From: Pseudolabrys sp.
GTDB taxonomy: Bacteria; Pseudomonadota; Alphaproteobacteria; Rhizobiales; Xanthobacteraceae
Assembly: GCA_019689975.1 (NCBI GenBank)
Contig: JADGGK010000003.1
Coordinates: 1-64,000, forward strand
DNA: 64,000 bases
Direction: 5' to 3'
Shown here: piece after piece, positions 11,187 to 39,470 of the stretch
Position numbering within the stretch: position 1 is the first letter of the stretch
Layout: each line of letters starts with the position of its first letter
Program-made: the position numbers and the translations under genes
Notes under the pieces: model-generated
Databases searched by the model: none
The model's input: the letters and a program-made list of their open reading frames with translations, nothing else
Told to the model about the DNA's origin: nothing

Positions 11187-12509
11187 TCAGAAGCTCTCGC
11201 GCAGCCATTGTCCGACCCGTGCCATGTAACCGCCCGTCCCTGTCATCAGTCGCCGCGTTTTCCGCGGTTCGAAGTGTTCGAGATGCGCGGCCTGCGGATA
11301 AACGAGCAGGCCCGCGGCCGCCGCGAAGGCCGCGCTCTTGGCCGCCTCCGGCAAACCGGAAATGCCGAGCGGGCGCCCGATGCGCACCGGCCGCCGAAGG
11401 ATCTGCGCGGCAAGCTCGGCAAGCCCCGTGACCTGGCTGCCGCCCCCGGTCAGCACGATGCGGCCGCGCGCCTCGGCCGCAAAAGGCGACGCCGCGAGCC
11501 GGTCGCGCACCATTTCAAGTATCTCCTCAATGCGCGGCCTGACGATGCGCGTGACCTGCGCGCGTGAAACGAACTGCGGCGGCTCGCGCTCGTCGTCTCC
11601 GACCGGCGGCACCGTGATCATGTCGCGTTCATCCGATCCACCGGTCAAAACACTGCCATAAATCGCCTTGATTCGCTCTGCGTCGGCGATTCTCGCGTTG
11701 AGGCCGCGGGCCAGATCCAAGGTCACGTGGCGGCCGCCGAGGGCGAACCCCTCGGCGTGGACGAAGCGCCCGCCGGAGAAAACCGCGAAAGTGGTCGTTC
11801 CCGCGCCGAGATCGACGCAGGCCGACCCCAGATCGGCCTCGTCGTCGGCGAGGACGGCCAAGGCGGCGGCATAGGGGGAGGCAACGACGGCCTCGACCGT
11901 CAAATGGCAACGCTCGATTGCGAGCATGAGGTTGCGCACCGTGGCCGCTTCGGCCGTAACCGTGTGCATGTCCACGCCCAGGCGACGGCCGACCATGCCG
12001 CGCGGCTCGCGGATGCCCGTCGCGGCGTCGAGCGTGTAGCCGATGGGCAGGGAGTGGAGCACGGCGCGACCGCCGCGAAGCGAGTGACGGCTTGCCGCCG
12101 CAAGCACGCGGGCGATGTCGGCCTCGGTGACGACGCCGCCGGCGAGCACGATCTCCCCGGTGAAGCGCTCGCTGGCGAGCCGTCCACCGGAAAGGGAGAT
12201 CACGGCCGACTGGATACGCACCCCCGCCATCCCCTCGGCAGTGGCGATGGCCTGGCGTATCATGGCCTCCGCCGCTTCCAGGTCGACGACCGAGCCGGCC
12301 TTCATGCCGGCGGCCGCGCTATGGGCGAAGCCCATGATGCGGACGCCGTGGGAGCGGCGCCGCAGCGCCTCCTGCGGCGCCTGCGGCTCGAGCCTGGCGA
12401 TCAGGCATACGACTTTGCTGGTTCCCACATCGATGCCCGCGACCACGGCGGCCCGGCGCGGCGACACCGGCTTCATCTTGGGGGTGAGACCGAAGGGAAG
12501 CACCGTCAC
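11187..12509 (-). CDS. ftsA: cell division protein FtsA
   Basis: Actin-fold motifs (AGIDVGTSKVVCLIA, CVDLGAGTTTFAVF, IVLTGGGSQVTG), C-terminal amphipathic membrane-targeting tail. Confidence 0.97.
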   Translation of the reverse strand: MTVLPFGLTPKMKPVSPRRAAVVAGIDVGTSKVVCLIARLEPQAPQEALRRRSHGVRIMGFAHSAAAGMKAGSVVDLEAAEAMIRQAIATAEGMAGVRIQSAVISLSGGRLASERFTGEIVLAGGVVTEADIARVLAAASRHSLRGGRAVLHSLPIGYTLDAATGIREPRGMVGRRLGVDMHTVTAEAATVRNLMLAIERCHLTVEAVVASPYAAALAVLADDEADLGSACVDLGAGTTTFAVFSGGRFVHAEGFALGGRHVTLDLARGLNARIADAERIKAIYGSVLTGGSDERDMITVPPVGDDEREPPQFVSRAQVTRIVRPRIEEILEMVRDRLAASPFAAEARGRIVLTGGGSQVTGLAELAAQILRRPVRIGRPLGISGLPEAAKSAAFAAAAGLLVYPQAAHLEHFEPRKTRRLMTGTGGYMARVGQWLRESF

Positions 12510-13444
12510 GCGTCGCCTCCCCGCTTGAGCCTATCCTTTTCCGTCGCCTTCACCGCCTGTGCCCGCTGAGCCGCGGCCGCTTCGGACAAGCGCACGCTCA
12601 CTCGGTCGGGCAGACGCAGGTCGACATTCACGATGTCGCGGGAAAGCAGTTTGCGTGAGCGGTCCAGGTCGACCAGCGTCTTGAGCGCATGTTCGGGTTC
12701 CGACTCCGGCAGCAACACTTCGATGCCGTTCTTGAGGTAGAGCGTCCAGCGCCGCTCGGCGACCAGCACGGAGGCTCTCACCTCGCGCGCAATGACCGGA
12801 TAACGGGCGAGCATGGCGAGGAGTGCCTCGGCCGCTTGCGCAGCGCCCTCGCCCACCACCAGCGGCAGTGCGAGATAGCGGGCCGGGGCGGACGGCGTGA
12901 GCACGGTGCCGTCGGCCGCGATCAGCAAGACGCGTCCCTTGTCCTGCCAGAGGGCGAAGGGCTTGCGCTCCCGGATCTCGATGCGAAGCCGGTTCGGATA
13001 AAGCTTGAGCACCGCCGCGTCGGCGATCCAAGGGTTGGCAAGCAGGCGCGTGCGCGCCCGGCCTGCATCGAGAAACAACAGCGAGGTGCGGTCCGTGATG
13101 CCGGCGCGCGAGAGGATTTCCGCGCGGCTGACTTCATGCTCGCCCGAGAGCGCGATCTCGGTGATGCCGAAGCCGGCGGCGTTGGCGGCGGCGTCGCACA
13201 GATCCTGGATCCCCGCTGCGATTTCCGCGGCATGATTGCCGCGTATGACGCCGTAGCTCACGCTGGCGAGCAGCAAGAGTGCCGCGGCGGCGGCTCCTGC
13301 ACCCCTCGGCACGTCGATCGCGAATAACCTCGCGAGCCAGCGCGTCAGGCCGTTCGGCGAACGCGTTGCGTCGTGCGCCGGTGCTTGTGCCCATGCGCGT
13401 CGCCTGCGGCTCAGCCATCGCGCCAAAACTGATCGGCCGTCCAT
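12506..13444 (-). CDS. ftsQ: cell division protein FtsQ (POTRA/FtsQ domain)
   Basis: EVSRAEILSRAGI POTRA motif, N-terminal TM, 4-bp overlap with ftsA; start trimmed to MDGRSVLARW. Confidence 0.93.
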   Translation of the reverse strand: MDGRSVLARWLSRRRRAWAQAPAHDATRSPNGLTRWLARLFAIDVPRGAGAAAAALLLLASVSYGVIRGNHAAEIAAGIQDLCDAAANAAGFGITEIALSGEHEVSRAEILSRAGITDRTSLLFLDAGRARTRLLANPWIADAAVLKLYPNRLRIEIRERKPFALWQDKGRVLLIAADGTVLTPSAPARYLALPLVVGEGAAQAAEALLAMLARYPVIAREVRASVLVAERRWTLYLKNGIEVLLPESEPEHALKTLVDLDRSRKLLSRDIVNVDLRLPDRVSVRLSEAAAAQRAQAVKATEKDRLKRGGDA

Positions 13445-13587
13445 CGGTCGTCCCGGTTGGATCGGCGCGCAAGGAGTCCCCTTGCACCGCGCCGTCGGCA
13501 GCCCCGCGTCTTGGACGCGCATGCCTTCGCTGCGCGCGCAGCCACGCGCTCGACGAGCCGCCACGGGCCTAGTCTTCGGGCCTTTCG

Positions 13588-13873: not shown

Positions 13874-14083
13874 TTAGGCCAGTGCGATCGTGCCGACGGC
13901 CACCTTGCCGCTGCGCGGATCATTGCGGGTGTCGAACGTCACCTTCTGGCCTTCGCGCAGCGTCGCGATGCCGGCGCGCTCGAGCGCGGTGGCGTGAACA
14001 AATACGTCCTTCTGTCCGTCGTCAGGCTGGATGAAGCCGAAGCCTCTTTGCCCATTGTAGAATTTCACTGTGCCCGAAGTCAT
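13874..14083 (-). CDS. cold-shock protein (CspA family)
   Basis: GTVKFYNGQRGFGFIQPDDGQKDVFVH: RNP1/RNP2 motifs. Confidence 0.96.
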   Translation of the reverse strand: MTSGTVKFYNGQRGFGFIQPDDGQKDVFVHATALERAGIATLREGQKVTFDTRNDPRSGKVAVGTIALA

Positions 14084-14412: not shown

Positions 14413-16269
14413 TCACCGGGCCGCCTGCAGCGCGGATCTTCGCAGCGGCGACGTCAGCTCCTTCAATTCGGCTTCGTTCAAGGTTTCCTTTTCAAGCAGC
14501 TCGCGCGCTCCCCGTTCCAGCAACAAACGCTGCTCCTTCAACAACGCGACGGTGCGGGAAAATATCCTTTCGACCATTGCACGCACCTCCTGATCGACAA
14601 GGTCCGCGGTCGCCTCCGCATAGTCTCGGTCGCGCGCCGGCGAGGGCACTTCCTGAGTGGCAAGAAAGCTCCGCGGATCGCGGTCGTAGGCGACATGGCC
14701 CAATTTCTCGGACATGCCGTAGCGCGTCACCATGCTGCGCGCGATGTCGGTCACGCGTCGCAAGTCGTCCGCCGCCCCGGTCGACAGGTGTCCGAAAACG
14801 ATAAGCTCCGCCGCTCGGCCCCCGAGGAGTACCGCCATCTTGTTCTCGAGTTCGTCCTGCGTCATGAGGAACCGATCCTCGGTCGGTCGTTGGATCGTGT
14901 AACCGAGCGCGCCTATCCCGCGCGGGATGATGGACACCTTGCGCACCGGATCGGCGCCCGGCAGCGCAAGCGCCATCAGCGCGTGTCCCATCTCGTGATA
15001 GGCGACGATCTCGCGCTCTTTCGGATTGAGGAGCCGATTGCGCTTTTCCAGGCCGGCGACAATGCGCTCCACCGCGTCGTTGAAATCGGACATCGAAACA
15101 GCCGTAGCGCCGCGCCTGGTCGCGAGCAGGGCCGCCTCGTTGACCAGGTTGGCCAGATCCGCACCGGTAAATCCGGGGGTCAGCTCGGCAACCTTTTCAG
15201 CTTCGACATCGGGGGCAAGTTTCACCTTGTTCATATGGACCCGGAGTATCTGGATACGCCCCTTCTTGTCCGGCCGATCCACGAGTATCTGCCGATCGAA
15301 ACGTCCGGCGCGCAGCAAGGCGGGATCGAGAATCTCTGGGCGATTGGTCGCGGCCAGAATCACCAGGCCGGAGCGGGAATCGAAGCCGTCGAGCTCGACC
15401 AGGAGCTGATTGAGCGTCTGCTCCTTTTCGTCATGACCTCCCGCATAAGGGGCTATCCCGCGTGCACGGCCGAGGGCATCGAGCTCATCAATGAAAATGA
15501 TGGCCGGCGCCTTCTGGCGCGCCTGCTGAAACAGGTCTCGCACGCGCGCCGCGCCGACACCGACGAACATTTCCACGAATTCCGAGCCGGAAATGGAGAA
15601 AAACGGCACCTTGGCTTCGCCGGCGACGGCCTTGGCGAGCAGCGTCTTGCCGGTTCCGGGAGGTCCGACCAGCAACACGCCCTTGGGCATACGGCCGCCG
15701 AGGCGGCCGTAATCGGCCGGGTTCTTCAAGAAATCGACGACCTCGCGCAATTCCTCCTTGGCTTCGTCGATGCCGGCAACGTCAGCGAAGGTCACGCCGG
15801 TGTCGGACTCGACATAAATTTTCGCCTTGCTCTTGCCGATCGACATCAAGCTTCCGGTCAGACCTTGCGCCTCGGCGAAACGCCTGCCGAGATACCACCA
15901 CAGCCCGGCGAACAGCAGGACCGGCATGATCCAGGACAGCAGATCGCGCACGAAGGTGCTTTCAATGCGCCCTGTATAACGGACGCCGTATTTGTCCAGC
16001 TCGCGAGCAAATTCCGGATCTACTCGCGTCGTCACGAACTGGGTACGGCCATCCGCCAAGGGCTCCTTGAGCGTGCCCTGAACGAAATTGTCTGAAACGC
16101 CGACCGAGGCGACCTTGCCTGCGCGGAGAAGTTCCTGAAATTCGCTGTAGGGGATCGTCGCAATTTGCGTCGCCATCGAGAAAAAATACTGAATGAGCAG
16201 GACGCCGAAGATCGCGGCGATCGCATATCCGATATTGAAACGCGTTTTCTTGGTCATCTCACAACTCAC
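14413..16269 (-). CDS. ftsH: ATP-dependent zinc metalloprotease FtsH (probably an accessory copy)
   Basis: [18 protein letters not shown] Walker A, SRH region, HEMGH zinc motif, N-terminal TM pair. Confidence 0.95.
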
Positions 16270-16552
16270 CCGTCATAGGCCGCCGGTTCCGTCGCACCTC
16301 TTCGACCAGTATCTGCAGATTGCGGCGTAATCCGTGGATCTGGTCCAAGAGATGGAGAATGAGGGTAATACCCTCATCATTCACGCCCAAATCCTCTTTT
16401 AATTCCCTGATCAATTGCGCACGGGCGAGATCGATTTCCGAGAAGGCCGGATCCGGCGTGCGCTGCGGCAAAATCCAGCCGGCGGAGATCCATTGCGCAA
16501 GTGTTTGGTCGTCGATCCGTGCCCGGACCACGAACTCCGCGGTGGGAATCAT
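16259..16552 (-). CDS. cbpM: chaperone modulator CbpM (MerR-like)
   Basis: Size and sequence (WISAGWILPQ, DLGVNDEGITLILHLLDQIHGLRRNL), overlaps cbpA. Confidence 0.85.
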   Translation of the reverse strand: MIPTAEFVVRARIDDQTLAQWISAGWILPQRTPDPAFSEIDLARAQLIRELKEDLGVNDEGITLILHLLDQIHGLRRNLQILVEEVRRNRRPMTGEL

Positions 16553-17463
16553 GCCGTGCCCTCCAGATGTCGGCGCGGATTGTGATCCTGTCCCCCCGAC
16601 CAGCGCTGCACGAATTCCTCAAGTTCGGCATCGCTTTTTTCGGGCAGAACCACTTTCAAGACGGCGTATTGATCGCCCCGCGTGCCGTCGGGCCGCGGGA
16701 TACCCTTGCCCTTCAGCCGGAGGCGCGTGCCCGTGCTCACCCCTCGCGGGATCTGCATCCGGACGCGCCCCGTCGGCGTCGGGATGTCGATCTTCGCGCC
16801 AAGCACGGCCTCGCGCAGCGTGACGGGAACTTCCACTTCGACGTCGTCGCCCTTGCGAACGAAGAAAGGATGCGGCCGTACGGCAACCGTGACGAATGCG
16901 TCACCCGGCGCGCCGCCGCCGATTCCGGCCCCGCCTTTGCCGCGCAGGCGCAGCACCTGCCCGTCACGCGTGCCGGCCGGTATGGTGACGTCGAGGAGCC
17001 TCCCGTCCGGAAGGCTGATCCGCTTGGCCGTGCCGTTGGCCGCTTCCAGAAAATCCAAGGTCAAACGGCAATGAAAATCATTGCCGCGCACCCGGAAGTT
17101 CCCGCGGCTCTCCTGGCGGCCGCCGAACAGTTCGGCCAGGATCTCTTCAAAATCCGCAAAGCCCGCCGTGGTGCTGTACTGGTGTCTCTGCGAATCGGCA
17201 GACTGGAAATCGCGATAATAGCGAGCGCGATGCCGCTCGGCGCCCGCGGCATCGATCTCGCCCCGATCGAAGCGCGCGCGTTTCTCCGGATCGCCAAGCA
17301 GATCATAGGCGGCAGCGACCGTCTTGAATTTCTCGCCGGCCTCTCGGTCACCCGGGTTCAGATCCGGGTGCAGTTGCTTGGCGAGCTTGCGGTACGCAGC
17401 GCGGATTTCCTCCTGCGTCGCATCGCGCCGGACGCCGAGCACATCGTATGGATCGAACGACAC
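16549..17463 (-). CDS. cbpA: DnaJ-family curved-DNA-binding co-chaperone CbpA (GTG start)
   Basis: N-terminal J-domain with HPD (QLHPDLNPGD); DnaJ C-terminal domain with no zinc finger; paired with cbpM. Confidence 0.9.
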   Translation of the reverse strand: MSFDPYDVLGVRRDATQEEIRAAYRKLAKQLHPDLNPGDREAGEKFKTVAAAYDLLGDPEKRARFDRGEIDAAGAERHRARYYRDFQSADSQRHQYSTTAGFADFEEILAELFGGRQESRGNFRVRGNDFHCRLTLDFLEAANGTAKRISLPDGRLLDVTIPAGTRDGQVLRLRGKGGAGIGGGAPGDAFVTVAVRPHPFFVRKGDDVEVEVPVTLREAVLGAKIDIPTPTGRVRMQIPRGVSTGTRLRLKGKGIPRPDGTRGDQYAVLKVVLPEKSDAELEEFVQRWSGGQDHNPRRHLEGTA

Positions 17464-17565
17464 ACGCCATCCCCGTCATTTCGCGATCAAACATGCCCTC
17501 CGCTTCCGGCGCCGCGACTTCAAAACGGATCATCGGCGGCAATGGTCTGTCTGCACCACACGGAA

Positions 17566-17594
17566 CGGAGACCGGGTACGACACCCGGTCTCCG
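17566..17594 (-). terminator. perfect 12-bp stem / 5-nt loop between the SPW gene and cbpA
   Basis: CGGAGACCGGGT-gtcgt-ACCCGGTCTCCG on the minus strand; no clear U-tract. Confidence 0.5.
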
Positions 17595-17616
17595 CCCGCA
17601 CGCTGCCTGGCCGTCG

Positions 17617-18015
17617 TCAGGCCGTGACTCGCGGCGTGTGGTGATGGAGGAACCACAGCCGCGCCGCCGCAATGACGGCAACGATCACGCCGATGACGAT
17701 ATGAAGCCACATCGCCGCGACGTCGGTCCAGAACCCGACCAGCCACGGCGAGAGGGCCACCCAGACGCCCGCGATCAAATTGAGCCACTCTTCCAGTTCG
17801 GCAAAGGCCGCGAGCGCCGCGGCGGCAAGCGCCACGATCACGATGCCGCTCAGCCACGCGTTCCAGCTCGCCGCCGGTTCGGACGAGAATCCGAAAATCC
17901 ACGGAGACAGAAACAGGAATGCGCCAAGCAGCACGTTGACCGCGTCACCGATCGTTTCCTTCTTCCAATTCTTGACGATCATGGGACTTCCTCCTTGCTG
18001 AAAGTCGCTCTCCAT
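17617..18015 (-). CDS. SPW-repeat membrane protein
   Basis: Two SPW motifs (LFLSPWIFGF, VALSPWLVGFW), four hydrophobic segments, AAGGAGG SD. Confidence 0.88.
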   Translation of the reverse strand: MESDFQQGGSPMIVKNWKKETIGDAVNVLLGAFLFLSPWIFGFSSEPAASWNAWLSGIVIVALAAAALAAFAELEEWLNLIAGVWVALSPWLVGFWTDVAAMWLHIVIGVIVAVIAAARLWFLHHHTPRVTA

Positions 18016-18033
18016 TTTTCTGCTGGCGGATCG

Positions 18034-18047
18034 GACGATTAATCGTC
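18034..18047. promoter_or_regulatory. 14-bp palindrome GACGATTAATCGTC upstream of the SPW gene
   Basis: Perfect palindrome sharing GACGAT/ATCGTC arms with 18071..18087. Confidence 0.4.
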
Positions 18048-18070
18048 ACCTCACCGCGTGACCTCGCTTT

Positions 18071-18087
18071 GGACGATCGAATCGTCC
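18071..18087. promoter_or_regulatory. inverted repeat GGACGAT-CGA-ATCGTCC
   Basis: Perfect 7-bp arms with a 3-bp centre. Confidence 0.4.
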
Positions 18088-18134
18088 GCACGCGCCCGCG
18101 TCGGGATGATCCTCCTTGCGTCGCCATTCGGCAC

Positions 18135-18164
18135 CGGGCAGACAGGGCGCCGACGCCCTGCCCG
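18135..18164 (-). terminator. strong GC-rich hairpin immediately after the hsp20 stop codon
   Basis: CGGGCA-gaca-GGGCG-ccga-CGCCC-TGCCCG, starting 1-2 nt past the TGA. Confidence 0.5.
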
Positions 18165-18165
18165 T

Positions 18166-18666
18166 TCACCGGCCGTTGATGGCGATCCGCTTCACCTTGG
18201 ACTGCGCCTGCGGCAGTTTCGGCATCGTCACGGTGAGCACCCCGTTCTTGAACGAGGCGGAGACCTTGTCCTCATCCACATCGTCGACCGGGATGCGCCG
18301 TTCGAAACGGCCGTAATAGCGCTCGCTGAACAGACGATCCTTGTCCTCCGTCTCGGTCCGCTTTTCGCCTTTGATGGTGAGCGTGCCGTTTGCGAGCTCG
18401 ACCTGAACGTCCTTGTCGTCGAGGCCGGGCAATTCCGCGGTTACCTTGACCTCCTTATCGGTTTCGCTCACCTCGATGTTCGGCCATCCGATCGCGCGGT
18501 CAAAGAACCGGTCGGTGCCGAACGGTGCAAGGTCGAATCCGCGGAAGAAATCGTCGAACAGACGATTCATTTCCCGATGCAAGGTCAGGAACGGATTGAG
18601 GTCGTCGCCGCGGCGCACAGCGACGTCGCGGCCGCGACTCCACGGAATCAGATCTCGGATAGCCAT
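18166..18666 (-). CDS. Hsp20/alpha-crystallin family small heat-shock protein
   Basis: Alpha-crystallin domain (VKVTAELPGLDDKDVQVELANGTLTIKGEK ... FKNGVLTVTMPK); AAAGGAGG SD. Confidence 0.95.
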   Translation of the reverse strand: MAIRDLIPWSRGRDVAVRRGDDLNPFLTLHREMNRLFDDFFRGFDLAPFGTDRFFDRAIGWPNIEVSETDKEVKVTAELPGLDDKDVQVELANGTLTIKGEKRTETEDKDRLFSERYYGRFERRIPVDDVDEDKVSASFKNGVLTVTMPKLPQAQSKVKRIAINGR

Positions 18667-18708
18667 AGCGGTCCTCCTTTCTTGTGTCGTTACGCGAACG
18701 GCCGCGGA

Positions 18709-18729
18709 CGCGGCGCGGACCGCGCCGCG
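18709..18729. repeat. perfect 10-bp inverted repeat between the two hsp20 genes
   Basis: CGCGGCGCGG-a-CCGCGCCGCG. Confidence 0.5.
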
Positions 18730-18763
18730 GCACGAGTTGCGGCAGCGCCAGAGCGGGGCACGC

Positions 18764-19213
18764 TCAGGCCGCCTTCTTGTGTTCGATCTGTTGGGCTTCG
18801 TTGCCGGCGTTGATCGCTATCTTGCGCGGCTTCATAGCCTCCGGCACCTCGCGCACGAGATCGATCTTGAGCAATCCGCCCTCGAACGAAGCGCTCTTGA
18901 CCTGCACGTAGTCGGCCAGGTTGAACACCCGCCGGAACGGACGTTGCGAGATGCCCTGATAGAGGTAGTTATGCTCGCCCTTCTCGGCCTTGCGGCCCTC
19001 GACGGTCAGCACGTTCTGCTCCGCCGTGATGGTGATCTCGTCGGGCGAGAAGCCGGCAAGCGCCAGCGAGATTTGATAATGGTCCTCACCGGTCCGCTCG
19101 ATATTGTAGGGCGGATAGTTGTCCTCCCCCGTCAATCGCAGCGAATCGTCGATGAGGTCGAGAAGGCGATCGAACCCGACGGTCGACCGCCAAAGCATAT
19201 CCAGGGTCCTCAT
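18764..19213 (-). CDS. Hsp20 family small heat-shock protein (IbpA-like)
   Basis: MRTLDMLWRSTVGFDRLLDLID..., YNIERTGEDHYQISLALAGF, FEGGLLKIDLVREVPEAMKPRKI; start trimmed to the Met preceded by AAAGGAGG. Confidence 0.93.
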   Translation of the reverse strand: MRTLDMLWRSTVGFDRLLDLIDDSLRLTGEDNYPPYNIERTGEDHYQISLALAGFSPDEITITAEQNVLTVEGRKAEKGEHNYLYQGISQRPFRRVFNLADYVQVKSASFEGGLLKIDLVREVPEAMKPRKIAINAGNEAQQIEHKKAA

Positions 19214-19326
19214 AGCCACATCCTCCTTTCGAGCAACATGGATACGAGAGCGTCGGACACCGTGTCCGGCGCCCGTCCCGCCGGGCCCCGAACAGGCACC
19301 CGGCACCGCGCAATCCGGCGCGGCAA
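19214..19326 (-). promoter_or_regulatory. ROSE-like RNA thermometer 5'UTR of hsp20
   Basis: Predicted successive hairpins ending in ATCC-atg-TTGCT-CGAA-AGGA-GGAT, where TTGCT pairs with the SD AGGA leaving a bulged G (19220..19243). Confidence 0.65.
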
Positions 19327-19332
19327 AAAACC

Positions 19333-19360
19333 AGATAGAACGTGAGCGGCGGATTTCAAG
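19333..19360 (-). promoter_or_regulatory. RpoH (sigma-32)-type promoter upstream of hsp20
   Basis: Minus strand CTTG-AAATCCGCCGCTCACGT(17)-TCTATCT, close to the alphaproteobacterial CTTG-N16/17-CYTATNT pattern. Confidence 0.6.
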
Positions 19361-19794: not shown

Positions 19795-20712
19795 CTACCG
19801 GTTGAGCGAAGCGTCGTCCACCATCCAGCGTACGAGATCGTCGAACGAGACGCCGGCATGCGCCGCCATTTCGGGTACCAGCGAGGTTGCGGTCATACCG
19901 GGCTGCGTGTTGACTTCGAGGCAATAGAGCCCGGTGACGCCCGGTCGGCGCTCGTCGTAGCGGAAGTCCGCACGCGTGACGCCACGGCAGCCAAGCGCGC
20001 GATGAGCGGCGAGCGCAAGACGCCGACATTCCTCGTATGCCTCGCGCGATATCGGCGCAGGCAGGAGATGCTTCGAGCCGCCCGGCGCATATTTGGCCTC
20101 GTAGTCGTAGAACGCCGTCGCGGGCACGATCTCGATCACGCCGAGCGCCTTGTCGCCCATCACCGCGCAGGTGAGCTCCTTGCCGGGAATGAAAGGTTCG
20201 ACCAGCACGCGTTCGCCATACGGCCAGTCGCTCCGCGTGAGCTCCTGCGGCGGATGAACCATGTCCTCGCGCACGATGAAGACACCAACACTCGAGCCTT
20301 CCGCCAGCGGCTTGATCACGTAAGGAGGGGGCAACAGGTGACGCGCAGCGGCATCGCGCCGGTTTGCGACCACGCCCTCGGGCACCGACACGCCGGCGGC
20401 GCGAAGCAACGCCTTGGCAACGTCCTTCTGCATGGCGGCGGCGGAGGCCAATACGCCGGAATGGGTGTAAGGAATGCCAAGAACCTCGAGCAGACCCTGC
20501 AACGTGCCGTCCTCTCCCGGTCGACCGTGCAGCACGTTGAGTGCGACGTCCGGCCTGAGCTCGGAAAGCCGGCTCGCGATGTCGCGGCCCACGTCGATGC
20601 GGCTGACACGAAAACCCTGTCGCTCGAGCGCATCGGCGCAGGCCTGGCCCGAACGCAGGCTGACCTCGCGCTCCGCCGACCATCCGCCCATCAGCACCGC
20701 GACGTGCCTCAT
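19795..20712 (-). CDS. ddl: D-alanine--D-alanine ligase
   Basis: VAVLMGGWSAEREVSLRSG, HGRPGEDGTLQGLLE, YCLEVNTQPGMTATSLVPEMA. Confidence 0.96.
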   Translation of the reverse strand: MRHVAVLMGGWSAEREVSLRSGQACADALERQGFRVSRIDVGRDIASRLSELRPDVALNVLHGRPGEDGTLQGLLEVLGIPYTHSGVLASAAAMQKDVAKALLRAAGVSVPEGVVANRRDAAARHLLPPPYVIKPLAEGSSVGVFIVREDMVHPPQELTRSDWPYGERVLVEPFIPGKELTCAVMGDKALGVIEIVPATAFYDYEAKYAPGGSKHLLPAPISREAYEECRRLALAAHRALGCRGVTRADFRYDERRPGVTGLYCLEVNTQPGMTATSLVPEMAAHAGVSFDDLVRWMVDDASLNR

Positions 20713-20825
20713 GCCGTGCCTCTCCGCCTCTCGTTTCCGGCCCATCGCCGGCATTCGCGCGTTCTTCCCGGCTCGCGCGGAAAGGAAAAGGATATGAATG
20801 CCGCGCCCTGCAAAGCTCGCCCGCT

Positions 20826-21749
20826 TCACGAGGGGCATAACCCGATTCGTTTAATTTCCCATTCAAGCTCGATCCCGGAGGCTTCCTTCACCCGCAGGCG
20901 CACGGTCTCGCCCAGCGTCTCGATGTCGCTCGCCGTGGCGTCGCCGAGATTGACGATGAAATTGCAATGCAACGGCGAAACCTGCGCGCCGCCTACGGTC
21001 AAACCGCGGCAGCCGGCCGCGTCGATGAGCTGCCAAGCCTTCCTTCCCGGCGGATTCTTGAATGTCGAACCGCCGGTACGGTTGCGCGGCTGCGTGGCCT
21101 CGCGTTGCTTCTTGATGTCGTCCATCTCCCGCGCGATCCGCGCGACCTCGCCGGCGCAGCCTTGAAAGACGGCGGCGGTGAAGATCACGTCCTCCGGCAC
21201 GCCGCAGTGGCGGTAGGCGAAGCCCATGGCGCCGTTGCTGAACACGCGAACACGGCCCTCGCGATCAAGACCGCGTGCCTCGACGAGCACGTCCTTGGTC
21301 TCGCCCCCATAGGCGCCGCCGTTCATGCGTAGCGCGCCGCCGACCGAACCCGGTATGCCGGAGAGAAAGGCAAGCCCGGCAATGCCGGCGTCGCGCGCCG
21401 CGCGCGCGACGTGCACGTCGAGCGCCGCAGCGCCGGCGTGCAGACGATGATCGGAGAGGGTCGCCACCGCGTTGAAGCCCCGGCCAAGACGGACGACCAC
21501 GCCCGGCACGCCTCCGTCACGCACAATGAGATTGGAGCCGGCGCCGATCACCGTCACCGGGATCTCGGCCGGCAAACGGTCGAGAAAATAGGCGAGATCC
21601 TCCTCGTCCGCGGGCACGAAAAAGGCCTGTGCCGCGCCGCCGACGCGAAACCAGGTGAAGGCGCCGAGCGGCTGGTTCGCGGCAATCCGTCCGCGCAGAC
21701 CCGGCATGCGCGCCCTGAGCTCCGCGGTGATGTCGGGGAAAATCCTCAT
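20826..21749 (-). CDS. murB: UDP-N-acetylenolpyruvoylglucosamine reductase
   Basis: [47 protein letters not shown]. Confidence 0.97.
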
Positions 21750-39026: not shown

Positions 39027-39463
39027 GGTCAGTCGGCCGGACGGCCGCTCCGCGCCAGGGCCGAAAGGCGGCCGGGGAGGAAAGTCCGGGCTCCACGGAT
39101 CGACGGTGCCGGATAACGTCCGGCGGGAGGAGCCCTCAGGGCAAAACCCAGGGACAGTGCCACAGAAAACAGACCGCCGCGGCACCCTCGTCTTGGCGCC
39201 GCGGCAAGGGTGAAACGGTGCGGTAAGAGCGCACCGCGCTTCCGGCAACGGAAGCGGCACGGCAAACCCCACCGGGAGCAAGACCGAATAGGAACGGCGC
39301 GACCGCGCCCCGCGCGAGCGGAGATGCGGTCGGATCATCGGTCCGGATCTGCCGTTCGGGTAGGTTGCTTGATGCGCCGGGCGACCGGCGTACCAGAGGA
39401 ATGGCCGTCACGCCTGCGGTCTGCCGCAGGCCATACAGAACCCGGCTTACAGGCCGGCTGATC
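39027..39463 (+). ncRNA. rnpB: RNase P RNA (bacterial type A)
   Basis: Conserved GAGGAAAGTCCGGGCTCCAC, AGGGTGAAACGGTGCGGTAAGAGCGCACCGCG and ACAGAACCCGGCTTACAGG; terminal P1 pairing GGTCAGTCGGCC/GGCCGGCTGATC. Confidence 0.96.
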
Positions 39464-39470
39464 AAGCAAA

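Follow-up and report, generated by a model that had tools for sequence, protein, structure and literature searches.

The question raised by this locus is whether the RNA upstream of a small heat-shock gene, hspA, is a temperature switch and, if so, of which class. The gene lies on the minus strand of the window, the whole 64,000-nucleotide stretch of DNA that was analysed, and the initial annotation had proposed a ROSE-like RNA thermometer in its leader. Published hallmarks of ROSE elements are a U(U/C)GCU motif and three to four hairpins (PMC3669281). The features on which the question turns are the following.

18764-19213, minus strand: hspA, small heat-shock protein (class A, IbpA-like), 149 aa; Pfam HSP20, E 1.9e-19
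19207-19303, minus strand: ROSE RNA thermometer (RF00435), hairpins II-IV; cmscan
19222-19227, minus strand: Shine-Dalgarno AGGAGG, read from the sequence, with the AUG 8 nt on
19232-19236, minus strand: UUGCU anti-Shine-Dalgarno motif with G19234 bulged; invariant in the alignment of relatives (A2)

The Infernal search against the Rfam ROSE families that the annotation had suggested gives a direct answer. Over the 64 kb, cmscan returns a full-length RF00435 match (model positions 1-94) at 19303-19207 on the minus strand, with 68.5 bits and an E value of 3.5e-8 against a gathering score of 45 bits; when 801 bases around the leader are scanned the E value is 4.4e-10. The hspA leader is alone above this cut-off in the 3.57-Mb assembly, and among 300 family genomes 98 carry RF00435. 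No ROSE_2 (RF01832) match occurs at E <= 10 between 18900 and 19700. The Mir, VA and AS-pc02 matches in the leader scan are due to chance (E 2 or more). Elsewhere in the window, RNase P RNA (RF00010) is found at 39029-39465 on the plus strand with 269.8 bits. Of the traits by which ROSE elements are recognized, those of sequence, structure and position are present: a U(U/C)GCU motif facing the Shine-Dalgarno sequence, with a single G left unpaired in the 3′ hairpin, four hairpins (19324-19208) where two to four are expected in the 5′ UTR, and a small heat-shock gene directly downstream (hsp20, 19213-18764). HspA scores 138 bits against the IbpA model, below the equivalog cut-off of 212, and its AUG occupies 19213-19211. 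The proposal of a ROSE-like thermometer is supported by the RF00435 match, the position before hsp20, UUGCU with its bulged G, and the covariation in 42 relatives described below. The hspA leader is a genuine and ordinary ROSE element of a known class in its usual place.

The minimum-energy fold of the leader consists of four successive hairpins spanning 19324-19208.

19305-19324, minus strand: hairpin I, at the 5′ end and not part of the Rfam model; from the fold, with pairing kept in the nearest relatives
19280-19304, minus strand: hairpin II; both-side changes in 8 of 9 pairs among 42 relatives
19250-19279, minus strand: hairpin III; both-side changes in 5 of 10 helix pairs among 42 relatives
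19208-19249, minus strand: hairpin IV, the thermosensing helix over the Shine-Dalgarno sequence and the AUG; Rfam structure, minimum-energy fold and relatives

The leader is 67% G+C, and 120 nt of it fold with -69.7 kcal/mol; dinucleotide shuffles average -53.3 +/- 4.0 (z -4.1), and 0 of 200 are as stable. Hairpin IV by itself folds with -17.0 kcal/mol and has a z of -3.4 against shuffles. The first three hairpins had been placed correctly on the minus strand, with CCGCGC (19323-19318) pairing with GCGCGG (19311-19306), GCCGGG (19304-19299) with CCCGGC (19285-19280) and CGGACA (19268-19263) with TGTCCG (19259-19254). In the nearest relatives the stem of hairpin I has changed in sequence and kept its pairing, as in GCCGCGC/GCGCGGU, GCCACG/CGUGGC and GCAGCGC/GCGCUGC.

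The last hairpin had been drawn with AUCC paired to GGAU, a 3-nt AUG bulge and UUGCU facing the AGGA at 19227-19224, the helix ending at the start codon. This register has a free energy of +0.9 kcal/mol at 37 C, compared with -17.3 kcal/mol for the register given by Rfam and by the minimum-energy fold. In the latter, the partner of UUGCU (19236-19232) within AGGAGGA is the second AGGA (19224-19221), and G19234 is bulged; the helix also takes in the AUG, with A19213, U19212 and G19211 paired to U19244, G19245 and C19246, and closes at 19208. Of the initial annotation, the bulged G and the masked Shine-Dalgarno sequence stand, and its pairing register and the end of the helix at the start codon are replaced: the hairpins were described correctly in essence, with an error in one detail of the pairing. 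Any mutant test would rest on the corrected pairing. An in-frame GTG (19219-19217, minus strand) lies 6 nt 5′ of the hspA start and is too close to the Shine-Dalgarno sequence for normal use; in several relatives it is an ATG (ATG-GCT-ATG).

Comparison with relatives was made on 42 diverse UUGCU-bearing leaders from their genomes; these were collected by the UUGCU motif, so that its constancy among them, and that of hairpin IV around it, is partly a product of this choice. When the structure of the hspA leader is projected on this set, 86.2% of the cells pair and 17 pairs have changed on both sides. Compensatory change is seen in 64 cells, where shuffles give 27.7 +/- 4.0. The covariation score of 0.167 exceeds the 0.122 +/- 0.005 of the shuffles and falls below 0.06 in every register in which the partners are slid by 1-3 columns. 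Hairpin II contributes the bulk of the covariation. Hairpin IV is paired in 88.7% of cells and is mostly frozen around the core formed by UUGCU and the Shine-Dalgarno sequence. The RF00435 model, the fold and the covariation together establish the hairpin structure of the hspA leader.

It can be stated with high confidence that the leader is a classical alphaproteobacterial ROSE element, which should hide the hspA ribosome site until heating. The hspA mRNA would begin near 19326, from a CTTGAA-N16-CTA promoter, and at normal temperature its leader would be held in the four hairpins, hairpin IV pairing UUGCU with the Shine-Dalgarno AGGA and also covering the AUG. By analogy with ROSE1 and the Pseudomonas elements, the paired Shine-Dalgarno/AUG region would keep the 30S subunit off and block translation, and heat would open the weak, bulged, G-U-rich helix, leading to the immediate synthesis of HspA. 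Between 20 and 45 C, thermal folding with ViennaRNA (run from 20 to 70 C) predicts a slow increase in Shine-Dalgarno accessibility, from 0.19 to 0.26, and the AUG is predicted to stay closed up to 50 C. The same calculation on a B. japonicum-type ROSE leader yields an equally flat curve, 0.26 to 0.31, and because that leader behaves alike, nearest-neighbour melting does not discriminate. With the bulged G deleted in silico, the predicted accessibility no longer increases on warming, a change in the expected direction.

The G+C-rich leader may open only at high temperature. A reading that takes this further holds that the element is ROSE by descent and no longer a physiological switch, being so stable that synthesis of HspA would need lethal temperature or processing of the RNA. 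The -69.7 kcal/mol of the leader, the AUG predicted closed to 50 C and the probable arrival of the element with an island from another lineage are all compatible with such decay. Decay should, however, break pairs, and hairpin IV is intact; relatives have an identical motif with its bulged G and likewise pair the start codon, and the B. japonicum-type leaders are predicted to be nearly as closed. The loss of switching is accordingly judged very improbable, and a working ROSE switch remains the preferred reading.

Upstream of the hairpins lies a conserved promoter-like motif.

19333-19360, minus strand: putative promoter, CTTGAA (19360-19355), 16 nt, CTATCT (19338-19333); conserved motif

It resembles an RpoH promoter in its -35 box, with a weaker -10, and transcription of hspA is expected to start 7 nt past CTATCT. 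The combination CTTGAA-N16-CTA occurs once in the 64 kb when both strands are searched. Across relatives, CTTGAA is found 5′ of 125 of 160 ROSE-type sites, compared with 3.9 in shuffles, with a spacing of 16 in most; the commonest arrangement is CTAA 16 nt past CTTGAA (64 sites), and CTAT, the form seen before hspA, also occurs. Conservation of this motif alongside the RNA, together with its likeness to the RpoH -35 box, could be read to mean that the leader acts mainly through transcription or mRNA stability, for example by a heat-shock sigma promoter and a protective 5′ structure, and not through the Shine-Dalgarno helix. Both layers operate in Pseudomonas ibpA, where sigma-32 transcription is combined with ROSE control of translation (PMC3669281), and rpoH dependence has been reported for ROSE-headed small heat-shock genes in S. 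meliloti (PMC3989490). This account leaves the constancy of UUGCU, of the bulged G and of the pairing in the Shine-Dalgarno core unexplained, and hardly any weight is given to it beside translational control by hairpin IV.

The thermometer stands at the head of a chaperone and protease island (14413-19213), in which hspA is followed by five genes.

18166-18666, minus strand: hspB, second small heat-shock protein; Pfam HSP20, E 5.9e-25
17617-18015, minus strand: SPW-repeat membrane protein; Pfam SPW, E 9.9e-27
16549-17463, minus strand: cbpA-like J-domain co-chaperone; Pfam DnaJ and DnaJ_C
16259-16552, minus strand: cbpM/HspR-like MerR_2 protein; Pfam MerR_2
14413-16269, minus strand: ftsH, island membrane protease; NCBIfam FtsH_fam, 779 bits, over the cut-off

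The cbpM/HspR-like protein matches HspR and CbpM weakly, in each case below the cut-off. From hspA on, the first three junctions are gaps of 97, 150 and 153 nt without terminator-like sites and the last two are overlaps of 4 and 11 nt, an arrangement consistent with a single hspA-ftsH operon. The hspB, co-chaperone and FtsH genes would then probably share the hspA message and gain from its translation indirectly, through mRNA stability or relief of polarity. The initial annotation had placed the lead gene of the whole island under translational temperature control, which is supported for hspA and is indirect and putative for the other genes.

The island sits in the division and cell-wall cluster between ddl (19795-20838) and ftsQ (12506-13564), and its G+C content is 0.623 against 0.669-0.686 in the flanks. 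A gene for a 69-aa cold-shock-domain protein (13874-14083, minus strand; Pfam CSD, E 3.4e-20) lies between the island ftsH and ftsQ. In genus mates where both genes lie within reach, ddl and ftsQ are mostly found close together, at times separated by other inserts, and the heat-shock island is absent from every genus-mate ddl/ftsQ locus read. Other inserts are frequent in genus mates at the junctions ddl-ftsQ and murB-ddl (L219 3417-6705, L222 1-4520, L225, L227), which suggests a variable site; among them is a recurrent small protein that starts MARYTxEFLAAAxHGYExTDQPM and whose L222 copy has no Pfam family. One further genus has the full order hspA-hspB-SPW-cbpA-cbpM-ftsH behind a ROSE element (G036:C274, locus L177; L003, a Hyphomicrobiales MAG, appears to be the same DNA), and shorter ROSE-headed hspA-hspB versions are commoner. 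At one locus (L118 2116-2201, genome G291) the ROSE element directly precedes hspB without hspA, an apparent loss of hspA in which the thermometer was kept. HspA is 84% identical to its counterpart in a Hyphomicrobiaceae MAG and at most 60% identical to any small heat-shock protein of its own genus, and because of this closer kinship the island was likely acquired horizontally, as judged from sequence comparison. Since a ROSE element heads this probably acquired island, heat switch and heat-protection genes may move together.

The second hsp20 of the genome has a leader of its own (G000:C31:1442-1531; L132 1442-1531, plus strand) with UCGCU and a bulged G. It shares with the leaders of the orthologous genes within the genus a CTTG...CCCATATC promoter and three hairpins, the last of which pairs UCGCU with the Shine-Dalgarno sequence and leaves the G bulged. 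Rfam ROSE models find no match at E <= 1 in 15 UCGCU loci, that of G000:C31 included; among 16 further loci some give sub-threshold ROSE matches, the best of 37.3 bits (cut-off 45). A covariance model, R1, built from 14 UCGCU leaders finds the element in 200 of 300 genomes of the family (38 of 47 genera) and in 37 of 199 in the wider order, and a small heat-shock gene lies directly downstream in 30 of 30 and 19 of 19 loci checked (49 in total). The UCGCU alignment has 13 pairs changed on both sides, with 0 of 500 shuffles doing as well, though an alignment fitted to a model leans towards structure. R1 matches the hspA leader weakly (25 bits, E 0.0037), so that the UUGCU and UCGCU elements are probably distant relatives; and since UCGCU falls within the published ROSE-like definition, the lineage is a divergent branch that the library under-calls and not a new class. 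A tentative picture is one of two ROSE lineages in one genome, a UUGCU element acquired with the island and an ancestral UCGCU element on the core hsp20, the latter widespread across the order and below threshold in, or outside, the ROSE families of Rfam, with opening temperatures that may differ. As a result of the under-calling, counts of RNA thermometers in the order are probably too low, and the UCGCU alignments could supply a new Rfam seed.

Among known systems, the tLST or LHR islands are, like the one described here, mobile-looking groups of small heat-shock genes with ftsH. Their set comprises ClpG/ClpK with sHsp20, YfdX, HdeD, Trx, KefB, PsiE and DegP. Membership was dropped, as the six genes of the island include no ClpG/ClpK, YfdX, HdeD, Trx or KefB; the order of the genes and the host group are different too, the flanks here being ddl and csp/ftsQ. 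Among RNA thermometers, fourU elements also mask AGGA, using UUUU where the hspA leader has UUGCU with a bulged G. ROSE_2 (RF01832) and the short ROSE-like elements of Pseudomonas ibpA share the U(U/C)GCU anti-Shine-Dalgarno principle and are shorter, with fewer hairpins. The RF00435 systems, B. japonicum ROSE1-hspA and its rhizobial relatives, are those that the hspA leader matches: the UUGCU motif, the bulged G, the AUG within the helix, the hsp20 gene downstream and the full-length covariance match are all alike, and the CTTGAA-type promoter occurs in Bradyrhizobium leaders too. Nothing of substance differs from these systems, the extra 5′ hairpin being a trait that the hspA leader has in common with its close relatives.
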